In this document: positions 11,451-13,857 of the stretch, in pieces
Layout of the letters: each line of letters starts with the position of its first letter
How positions within the stretch are numbered: position 1 is the first letter of the stretch
Source of the DNA: Haloprofundus halobius
Lineage (GTDB): Archaea; Halobacteriota; Halobacteria; Halobacteriales; Haloferacaceae
Direction: 5' to 3'
NCBI RefSeq assembly: GCF_020097835.1
Contig: NZ_CP083666.1
Span: 682,001-746,000 of the forward strand
DNA length: 64,000 nt
Position numbers and translations under genes: made by a program
The notes under the pieces: model-generated
The model's database searches: none
Told to the model about the DNA's origin: nothing
Seen by the model: only the letters and a program-made list of their open reading frames with translations

Positions 11451-12131
11451 TTATCGGTTCTCGACGAGCGTCTGAATCGAGCCCTCGGGGACCGCACCCT
11501 GGGCCGTTCGATCCTGGTAGACGAACGACGGGATGCCGGTGATCTCTTCGCGCTCGGGGTCGTCGAGCGCCTCCGTGAGTCGCTGTTCGTGTCGCTGATC
11601 GCTCAGAGCCGACCGAACCGAAGCCGGGTCGATACCGGCGGCACCGGCGATGTCGACGAGCGTCTCGTCGGAACCGATGTCCTCGCCGTCGCGCCACAGC
11701 GCCGAAAAGAGCCAGTTGTGAACGGTCTCGAAGCGGTCGGGGTGCTCGTCTTGGATGTACAACGAGAGCTGCTGGGCCTTCCGCGAGTCCACGGTCCGAT
11801 ACGTCGGCGAGGAGAGGTTCATCTCGACGCCGTAACGACTCGCCAACTCCTCGACGGCCGACCACGGCGCGCCGAGCGACTCCTCGACGTCTATCTCTCG
11901 GCGTATCGTCCCGTCGCTGTCACGGTACGGTTCGCGGAGGTCGAACGGTCGCCACTCCACCGACAGCGACGAGAGCCCTCTGCTCTCACGGTTGGTCAGA
12001 TAGTTAGACAGAACCTCGGTACCGAGATAGCTGAACGGACAGACGTAGTCGGCGTAGACGACAAGTGAATCGGTCGTTTGAACGCTCGTTGGGGGACCTA
12101 CACCGTTCTCACTACCCTCGATATCTCGCAT
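11451..12131 (-). CDS. DsbA-family protein, FrnE-like
   Basis: A 226-residue thioredoxin-fold protein of the DsbA/FrnE group. The active-site position is 'YADYVCPFSYLG' with a single cysteine (C31) where DsbA has CxxC, and the cis-proline loop is 'ITGIPSFVY' (P201). The helical insert ('KAQQLSLYIQDEHPDRFETV') fits FrnE-like oxidoreductases and 2-hydroxychromene isomerase relatives. No signal peptide is visible, so it is probably cytoplasmic. A monothiol site suggests isomerase, reductase or glutathione-S-transferase-like chemistry rather than disulfide formation. It stands alone, convergent with the exporter operon. Confidence 0.85.
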   Translation of the reverse strand: MRDIEGSENGVGPPTSVQTTDSLVVYADYVCPFSYLGTEVLSNYLTNRESRGLSSLSVEWRPFDLREPYRDSDGTIRREIDVEESLGAPWSAVEELASRYGVEMNLSSPTYRTVDSRKAQQLSLYIQDEHPDRFETVHNWLFSALWRDGEDIGSDETLVDIAGAAGIDPASVRSALSDQRHEQRLTEALDDPEREEITGIPSFVYQDRTAQGAVPEGSIQTLVENR

Positions 12132-12496
12132 ACGGTTACCTACGTACTACCCTCGTAAGTAGCCACGCCCCAATCATCGACACAATCGTGGGCGACAGCC
12201 TCCTCGAACCCGCCAGTTGCGGGAACCGACACCACACTTCCGGTGAGCCATCACGCGACAACTGGACTCTCCAGAAAGATGGTCGAACGGCGGTCTCCGA
12301 ACCGATAGGTATCACAGAGAACTGATGTGTCCGAAATCTGAGTACAGTACCGAACCCGAGAACGTCAGAGAACCGGAGTGACGAAGCGGTCAGCGCAGGG
12401 GACCGAAGTCGTGATGTCGGGATAAATAGGCGATAGATTAATAAGGTGGCCGGGGGGTTACCGGGGGTTGATGTCAGACGTGAGGCAACGAGTGGT
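12132..12496. other. 365-base intergenic region with promoter and a 9-codon micro-ORF
   Basis: The left 300 bases hold no credible gene. Near the right end TTAATAA (12438-12444) is a good TATA box. ATG 12471, 27 bases after it, opens a nine-codon frame (MSDVRQRVV) whose TGA at 12498-12500 overlaps the ATG (12497) of the next gene. Confidence 0.55.
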
Positions 12497-12748
12497 ATGA
12501 CCGACCGTTGTCCGTACCTCGACTACCGCCGGAAGGCGGGTGGGCAGTCGTTCGACGCGGCGCGCCCGTACTGCACAGCCGCCGAGGAGTTCGTCCAACC
12601 GATGCGCGCGGATATCTGCGCCGGACGGTACGGACTCGACCACGCGACCGACTGCGAAATCTACCTCGCGCACACGGACGACACGACTGTCGACGTGGCT
12701 GGCGCGACGCCCGACGGCAACGAGTCGCGCGAGGTCGACGACGAATGA
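12497..12748 (+). CDS. Four-cysteine protein coupled to a BKACE gene, 83 residues
   Basis: A small acidic protein from ATG 12497 with four cysteines (C5, C26, C41, C53) set in 'CPYLDYRR', 'RPYCTAAE', 'ADICAGRYGL' and 'ATDCEIYLA'. The spacing is not a zinc ribbon but would suit a metal or Fe-S site. The C-terminal 25 residues are an acidic tail. Its TGA (12746-12748) overlaps the ATG of the next gene (12745), so the two are translationally coupled, suggesting a partner role for the beta-keto-acid cleavage enzyme. I do not know its function. Confidence 0.75.
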   Translation: MTDRCPYLDYRRKAGGQSFDAARPYCTAAEEFVQPMRADICAGRYGLDHATDCEIYLAHTDDTTVDVAGATPDGNESREVDDE

Positions 12749-13581
12749 GCTACGACGACTACCTCGCCGGGAAACCGGTCATCGTCACCGCGGCGCTGAC
12801 CGGCGGCGTCCAAGGGAAGGAAGCCCACCCGAACCTGCCGGAGACGCCCGGCGAAATCGCCGCGGCGGCCGCCGCCTGTGAGGAGGCGGGTGCGAGCATC
12901 GTCCACCTCCACGCGCGCCGCGACAGCGGCGAACGGGCCTTTTCGACTGAGCGGTTTCAGGAAGTGACCGACGCAGTCCGTAATGCGACCGACGACGTCG
13001 TGATACAGCACTCGACCGGCGGGACGGGTGCGCCGGACGCGTTGCGAGCGGAACCGCTGCGGACCGACCCCGCACCGGAGATGGCGTCGCTCGACATGGG
13101 GCCGCTGAACCGCTACGACCGCCTCACGAGCGAGAACACGCGCGCGACCGTCCGGATGCTCCACGAGGAGATGCGCGAACGCGGAATCAAACCCGAGTTG
13201 GAGGTGTTCAACGACGGCCACCTCAACGAGTCGCTGGCTATCGTCGACGAGCTCGACGCGCCGCCGTACGTCAACCTCATCTTCGGGCCGGGGACGCTCT
13301 CGGTCCCCCATCCGCGGAGCCTCCTGACGATGGTGTCGCACCTGCCCGAGAACGCGGAGTTCAACGTGCTCGGCTTCAGCCGTCACCAACTACCGCTGAC
13401 GACGATGAGCATGGTGTTGGGCGGCCACGTCCGCGTCGGACTGGAGGACAACATCTACTACCGGAAGGGCGAGTTGGCCGAGAGCAACGCGCAGTTCGTC
13501 GAGCGGGCGGTCCGCATCGCCGACGAGCTGGGGCGACCGGTGGCGACGCCCGCGCGGGCGCGGGAGATTTTGAGCCTCTGA
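12745..13581 (+). CDS. Beta-keto acid cleavage enzyme (BKACE/DUF849 family)
   Basis: A 278-residue TIM-barrel enzyme of the BKACE family: zinc-dependent enzymes that condense a beta-keto acid with acetyl-CoA and split it into a CoA ester and acetoacetate. Seen here are 'VIVTAALTGGVQGKEAHPNL', the metal-binding 'IVHLHARR', 'VIQHSTGG', 'LEVFNDGHL', 'FGPGTLSVPHPRSLLTMVSH', 'NVLGFSRHQLP' and 'GGHVRVGLEDNIYY', in the family's order. The substrate cannot be read from the sequence. It starts at ATG 12745 by overlap with the upstream four-cysteine gene. The acetoacetate-decarboxylase-like gene at 20572 could act downstream of its product, which is speculation. Confidence 0.9.
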   Translation: MSYDDYLAGKPVIVTAALTGGVQGKEAHPNLPETPGEIAAAAAACEEAGASIVHLHARRDSGERAFSTERFQEVTDAVRNATDDVVIQHSTGGTGAPDALRAEPLRTDPAPEMASLDMGPLNRYDRLTSENTRATVRMLHEEMRERGIKPELEVFNDGHLNESLAIVDELDAPPYVNLIFGPGTLSVPHPRSLLTMVSHLPENAEFNVLGFSRHQLPLTTMSMVLGGHVRVGLEDNIYYRKGELAESNAQFVERAVRIADELGRPVATPARAREILSL

Positions 13582-13757: not shown

Positions 13758-13840
13758 GTTGCGGTAGCCAAGTGGCCCAAGGCGCTGGGTTGCTAACTCA
13801 GTGGCGTCATGCCTCCGGGGTTCGAATCCCCGCCGCAACG
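13758..13840 (+). tRNA. tRNA-Ser (anticodon GCT)
   Basis: Acceptor GTTGCGG/CCGCAAC, U8, D-arm GCCAAGTGGCC, anticodon stem CTGGG/CTCAG with loop TTGCTAA (anticodon GCT), class II variable arm, T-loop TTCGAAT and discriminator G. It ends 17 bases before the rps13 start. A TATA-like TTTAAG about 90 bases upstream may drive the tRNA and the ribosomal operon together. Confidence 0.93.
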
Positions 13841-13857
13841 CTCACCCACTTTCCACC

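Follow-up and report, generated by a model that had tools for sequence, protein, structure and literature searches.

A small protein with four invariant cysteines is encoded beside a beta-keto acid cleavage enzyme (BKACE), or beside the remnant of one, at every place where we confidently detected it in 292 haloarchaeal genomes; the link between the two genes is real and very strong. We infer, at a probability of roughly 60%, that in one haloarchaeal BKACE clade the four-cysteine protein serves the enzyme as a dedicated accessory subunit that binds metal. The analysis started from a window of 64,000 nucleotides of Haloprofundus halobius (NZ_CP083666.1, positions 682,001 to 746,000), in which the pair and its surroundings are laid out as follows.

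11451-12131, minus strand: DsbA-family gene (PF01323), divergent, upstream of the pair.
12438-12444, plus strand: TTAATAA, TATA-like, probably serving the pair as promoter element (TTAAT in locus L003 and CTAACG in locus L002, from two congeners that carry the pair).
12446-12496, plus strand: putative in-frame N-terminal extension of the four-cysteine gene from a GTG, 17 codons, VAGGLPGVDVRREATSG.
12453-12473, plus strand: block GGGGGTTACCGGGGGTTGATG, common to the three pair-bearing Haloprofundus species; candidate leader or operator element, or codons of the N-terminal extension.
12471-12500, plus strand: micro-ORF of nine codons, MSDVRQRVV, judged fortuitous from comparison with L002, L003 and 133 loci.
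12497-12748, plus strand: four-cysteine gene, 83 aa, of an undescribed haloarchaeal family with the pattern C-x20-C-x14-C-x11-C (homology search and alignment).
12745-13581, plus strand: BKACE gene, 278 aa, joined to the four-cysteine gene by an ATGA overlap (PF05853 and motif alignment).
13758-13841: tRNA-Ser, downstream of the pair.

The letters and coordinates given in the preliminary description, namely TTAATAA at 12438-12444, ATG at 12471 and ATGA overlaps at 12497 and 12745, are all correct.

Searching the 292 genomes of the class with the four-cysteine protein, at an E threshold of 0.01, turned up 138 places spread over 125 genomes. Four weak places (E 1.2e-4 to 0.008) were set aside, leaving 134 solid places in 124 of the 292 genomes, these genome counts being counts of related species. 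BKACEs were collected in parallel with PF05853 (162 of 292 genomes positive) and with the window BKACE (145 of 292 positive, the best 150 rows classified). Of the solid places, 132 adjoin a BKACE and the other two adjoin a BKACE remnant. The four-cysteine gene lies upstream on the same strand in 113 cases, downstream in 13 (one of them 2.7 kb from the BKACE and two fused to it), convergent in five and divergent in one. At the two remaining places, either a 35-aa BKACE stretch follows the four-cysteine gene (genome G193) or the four-cysteine frame runs into a truncated BKACE (G262); neither genome has a BKACE among the matches listed, and because of the remnants both look like broken pairs. It had been proposed that the cysteine protein is a BKACE partner, and we looked for the pattern that would speak against this, a cysteine protein found mostly away from BKACE genes. 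The co-occurrence search of the 292 genomes gave the opposite, with all 134 solid places beside a BKACE or its remnant.

The reverse question, how many BKACEs have the partner, was answered by taking BKACE rows by similarity rank alone and not by the presence of a four-cysteine neighbour. This count replaced a genome-level Fisher test, which was dropped because defining "linked" by the neighbour makes the zero in the class "BKACE alone" partly a matter of construction. The 127 rows most similar to the window BKACE all have a four-cysteine neighbour, in 121 of 121 genomes, and among the 23 weaker rows in the matches listed five have it and 18 do not. Ten genomes encode two four-cysteine proteins, each beside its own BKACE. 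No four-cysteine homologue was found at any of the 18 unlinked BKACE loci listed (HMMER with --max, best E 0.9), and unlinked BKACEs occur in 16 genomes, seven of which carry a four-cysteine gene elsewhere. A cruder scan for ORFs of 45-130 aa with at least four cysteines within 600 bp did not discriminate, since it was positive at 14 of 14 unlinked loci and at 131 of 132 linked control loci.

In 392 genomes of the phylum, the share of this sample outside the class not being given, 30 four-cysteine matches were found, all in the same taxonomic order and none outside Halobacteria. A collection covering 84,980 species, scanned for the motif, yielded 111 stretches, of which 105 are relatives; 78 of the 80 relatives listed bear names of halophilic archaea and the others are labelled "uncultured archaeon" and, for a metagenome-assembled genome, "Euryarchaeota archaeon". 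Bacterial proteins with a CPYLG-type four-cysteine segment exist. Nine plasmid records, all from haloarchaeal genera, encode the four-cysteine protein; its gene is labelled "hypothetical protein" in six of them, and the other three have no gene or annotation there.

The two genes are also tightly joined. Among the 112 upstream loci measured, the overlap is exactly 4 nt in 96 (ATGA in 56, GTGA in 40) and 11 nt in four; the 4-nt overlap is more frequent than expected by chance. In two loci, BKACE and four-cysteine protein form a natural fusion within a single ORF, BKACE first (L070:2501-3646, 382 aa; L093:2471-3589, 373 aa). The two fusions come from two species of one genus and share a long branch with support of 100, and probably represent one event. 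A third locus, L117, has the reverse order as one ORF through an apparent indel in a run of T, and was not counted as a fusion because the indel may be a sequencing error.

Two other Haloprofundus genomes have no pair and retain both flanks, the DsbA side at 81-85% identity and tRNA-Ser/rpsM at 95%. One of them (G022) preserves a frame-broken C-terminal BKACE piece, residues 253-278, as two tblastn pieces at E 0.001 each. The other (G019) has no BKACE match and shows a short stretch similar to the beginning of the four-cysteine gene (local score 41, the best of 300 single-base shuffles scoring 27). Both genes are lost in each of the two congeners, with the scars lying between the DsbA gene and tRNA-Ser (L240, L241).

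By sequence, the enzyme of the pair belongs to the BKACE family. The window protein matches PF05853 at 294.4 bits against a cut-off of 24.8, over positions 1-274 of 274, and its nearest relative in the PDB is the BKACE/DUF849 protein Kce (2y7d, phmmer E 2.1e-56). Alignment to 2y7d shows that the window BKACE and the linked clade keep H-x-H (residues 54 and 56) and G-x-EDN (GLEDN), which, following the Kce literature, we take to be the zinc-site and catalytic motifs; the partner therefore does not replace the catalytic zinc site. Unlike Kce, the linked BKACEs have a dedicated four-cysteine partner and an invariant arginine at residue 123 (window 13111-13113), found in 130 of 130 linked rows, whereas 13 of 14 unlinked rows and 2y7d have phenylalanine there. 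By analogy with Kce, the surrounding SLDMGPLNR is presumably part of a substrate-facing loop. The window BKACE also stays below the cut-offs of the NCBIfam equivalogs for Kce (Lys_ferment_KCE, NF052387, 270.9 versus 382 bits) and for 3-oxoadipate:acetyl-CoA acetyltransferase (NF053568, 202.9 versus 350 bits).

In the mechanism that we propose, the four-cysteine protein and the BKACE would be co-translated from the overlapping genes. The small protein would consist of a beta-hairpin and helices arranged about a single metal site (zinc or iron-sulfur) held by the four cysteines, and would dock on the BKACE in a complex needed for assembly, stability or catalysis of the enzyme. One possible role would be to shape the acyl-CoA or substrate entrance. 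In the accessible text of PMC11961710, a characterized BKACE is a tetramer in which each active site holds one zinc and acetyl-CoA occupies a single entry channel. In favour of the subunit reading are the linkage as counted from both genes, the 4-nt overlap, the fusions, the joint loss in two congeners, the grouping of the linked BKACEs in one clade, the invariant cysteines and the confidently modelled part of the small protein. Several observations count against it: other BKACEs do without such a partner, the genes are not co-translated in the convergent, divergent and most downstream loci, the model of a fused protein leaves the four-cysteine part unplaced, and the four-cysteine tree does not divide fully by BKACE clade.

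The alternative that survives best is that the four-cysteine protein is a dedicated chaperone or assembly factor that delivers zinc or another metal to the active site of the BKACE and does not stay bound. The single zinc per active site (accessible part of PMC11961710) suits such a factor, as do the small size of the protein, its four invariant cysteines and the 4-nt overlap in 96 of 112 upstream loci. We consider it unlikely, however, since all 18 unlinked BKACE loci listed lack the gene and seven of the 16 genomes concerned carry it elsewhere, and since, as far as the accessible text of PMC11961710 goes, a different BKACE was purified and then assayed with zinc added, which speaks against a general zinc chaperone. 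In-frame fusion, too, fits a permanent partner better: the fusions make a subunit likelier than a delivery factor.

The four-cysteine protein itself belongs to a family with a median length of about 70 aa. Nine columns are invariant across the 132 sequences aligned, C5, L8, R23, C26, A38, D39, C41, R44 and C53, so that all four cysteines, at residues 5, 26, 41 and 53 of the window copy, are present in 132 of 132; 113 of 133 sequences share the spacing x20-x14-x11, and all 133 share its middle element, x14. The protein has no match in Pfam or NCBIfam and no significant match among PDB sequences, the best being copper amine oxidases at E 0.85, which is noise. Two candidate families were also treated as noise: DUF7140, touched by nine of 132 members with a best E of 0.0034, and CARF-assoc_HTH, touched by 11 of 132 with a best E of 0.013.

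The AlphaFold2 model of the window protein has a mean pLDDT of 82 and a pTM of 0.62; pLDDT is at least 90 for 51 of its 83 residues, and residues 11-60 have block means of 90-95. It consists of two strands (8-14 and 17-26) and three helices (35-42, 49-52 and 54-67). C5 and C26 are predicted where the hairpin opens, C41 near the close of one helix and C53 near the beginning of another, positions that would let the four cysteines meet at one site. In our reading they would hold a single putative metal site, zinc or iron-sulfur; the accessible portion of PMC11241148 describes AlphaFold2 as a poor judge of metal sites in small haloarchaeal four-cysteine proteins. Fold searches with the model against the PDB and BFVD gave nothing significant: Foldseek gave no PDB match with an E as low as 0.001 (highest probability 0.06), and VIA-align returned one row, 7onb_M (Z 3.2, 46 aligned, rmsd 2.8). 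In a model of the fused protein (pTM 0.72), built from an alignment in which only two of 48 rows cover the four-cysteine part, that part was not folded or docked with confidence (block means 38-62 from residue 321 on).

The four dispersed cysteines, with no CXXC knuckle and the spacing x20, x14, x11 in 113 of 133 members, could also belong to a redox or iron-sulfur sensor that switches the BKACE through cysteine oxidation or cluster loss, and such dispersed cysteines are unusual for a structural zinc finger. This is distinctly unlikely, given that the survey of genes near the pair-bearing loci found no recurrent redox gene, and that the divergent DsbA-family gene matched only Haloprofundus loci among them.

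For the subunit reading, the closest analogy in working mode is DUF35, a small zinc protein that acts as a scaffold in the archaeal acetoacetyl-CoA thiolase/HMG-CoA synthase complex and in a steroid aldolase (accessible text of PMC6996347). In both cases a small subunit with a four-cysteine metal site, putative in our family, would serve a CoA-dependent enzyme that acts on C-C bonds. It is an analogy only, as the defining features of DUF35 are not present. DUF35 has a rubredoxin-like zinc site with two CXXC pairs, an OB-fold and a thiolase partner, whereas the four-cysteine consensus contains no CXXC, the predicted fold is a hairpin followed by helices, and the partner is a BKACE. Among the ten Pfam families touched by the 132 four-cysteine members at E up to 1, DUF35 is absent. 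The C(P)XCG zinc-finger micro-proteins of Haloferax volcanii are likewise small haloarchaeal proteins with four cysteines, but carry two C(P)XCG motifs, as far as the accessible part of PMC11241148 goes, and the consensus of the present family has none.

A BKACE tree of 144 haloarchaeal sequences and 2y7d was built by a quick method, with L117, L088, L127 and L076 omitted as fused, broken or without a BKACE, and was repeated with all 18 unlinked rows (149 rows). Both trees place the 130 linked BKACEs on one side of a branch with SH-aLRT 95 and the unlinked ones on the other. The linked BKACEs divide into clade I (108 members), with the four-cysteine gene upstream in all, and clade II (22 members), in which it is downstream in 13, convergent in five, upstream in three and divergent in one. 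The four-cysteine tree, which has only 59 columns, separates clades I and II almost fully (two label changes instead of one, against a shuffled mean of 20.8). Across 130 loci, pairwise distances in one protein track those in the other (r 0.72; 0.65 within clade I), although shared ancestry alone raises such values.

Since the 108 rows of clade I share one arrangement that could descend from a single event, the adjacency might be no more than inherited operon structure, with both proteins acting in one pathway and never touching. Clade II, however, keeps the two genes adjacent through several changes of order and a fusion, and the pair was lost jointly in two congeners, which makes this explanation very unlikely. 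Weakest of all is the notion that the small protein binds DNA or RNA and regulates the BKACE gene. The upstream position in 113 of 134 places speaks for it, as does a haloarchaeal precedent, the small zinc-finger regulator Brz, likewise a small cysteine protein, whose gene sits immediately upstream of the target, bop (accessible text of PMC2253796). We regard it as highly improbable because, unlike Brz, the four-cysteine gene varies in its position relative to the BKACE gene and is in places fused to it, and a cis regulator has no need of downstream, convergent or C-terminally fused arrangements.

A bolder form of the subunit reading, which we hold to be rather unlikely, would make the halobacterial enzyme a two-component BKACE, in which a new metal- or iron-sulfur-binding fold is an obligate subunit that changes function (a new substrate, redox control, or channelling of acetoacetate or acyl-CoA), the replacement of the loop phenylalanine by an invariant arginine included. 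We found no report of a BKACE partner protein in the open-access literature, and the accessible text of the BKACE papers found there treats the enzyme as a single-component zinc enzyme. If true, an obligate partnership would give the first testable role to a family present in 124 of 292 haloarchaeal genomes, and the sister BKACE group without the partner, present in some of the same organisms, is a built-in control.

The region ahead of the pair had been described as a leaderless micro-ORF chained to the four-cysteine gene, with TTAATAA fitting a start at ATG 12471. Its letters, ATG TCA GAC GTG AGG CAA CGA GTG GTA TGA, end in a TGA (12498-12500) that overlaps ATG 12497. The ATG is kept in both pair-bearing congeners, and the frame continues for 361 codons in L002 and for 94 in L003, so that, of the three pair-bearing Haloprofundus species, the window alone has it ending in the ATGA overlap. 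Nor are such ORFs rare at these starts: a TGA overlaps the four-cysteine start codon in 65 of 133 loci, and an ATG-started ORF of at most 40 codons closes there in 13 of 133, the window being included in both counts. As two congeners do not keep the frame and similar ORFs are not rare, we rejected the micro-ORF as a gene; it is probably accidental and would have no part in the proposed system. With the TATA-like box 33 nt before ATG 12471 as well, a functional leaderless micro-ORF is unsupported.

What is conserved ahead of the four-cysteine gene, on comparison of the three species, is the DNA, as a candidate leader, operator or in-frame extension from GTG 12446, and not the peptide. The block GGGGGTTACCGGGGGTTGATG (12453-12473) is identical at 19 of 21 positions in all three, ends in the micro-ORF ATG and in each case stands 26 nt before the four-cysteine start codon; the stretch between the block and that start codon is much more diverged. 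A genome scan allowing up to three mismatches found a single forward copy of the block, a control pattern giving one reverse match. The block region contains two copies of GGGGGTT, 10 bp apart. The frame from GTG 12446 is open and of equal length in the three species, making it a further possible start that would give a 100-aa version of the four-cysteine protein.

TATA-like motifs, scored by a short list of patterns in 133 loci including the window, occur within 60 nt upstream of the four-cysteine start in 48 loci and are absent from 85. They begin 27-29 nt before the start in 46 loci, and the four-cysteine gene therefore looks like a leaderless first gene in many lineages. The other two loci, the window and L003, have the motif at 59 nt, and the Haloprofundus promoter thus seems to lie about 31 nt further upstream than in other lineages. 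The window TTAATAA begins 33 nt before ATG 12471 and 59 nt before ATG 12497; a transcript may start exactly at 12471, but the 33-nt spacing is off the 27-29 nt of the 46 loci with a motif near the gene. In the intergenic regions of the downstream arrangements L118, L085, L112, L133 and L136, an AT-rich motif (TAACATA or ATAACAA) precedes the four-cysteine start and is perhaps the gene's own promoter.

Two other genes occur beside the pair, too patchily to assign a substrate; the counts are lower bounds, and for loci L001-L030 the survey covered 1.5 kb to either side. Upstream of the pair, at least 22 of 111 loci outside clade II have a gene for an iron-containing alcohol dehydrogenase, divergent in at least 21 (for instance L057:196-1395, minus strand); the assignment of this enzyme as a maleylacetate reductase is unsupported by family scans. 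A GNAT acetyltransferase gene is found near the pair in at least 15 of the 22 clade II loci (for instance L134:3580-4716, minus strand, 379 aa).
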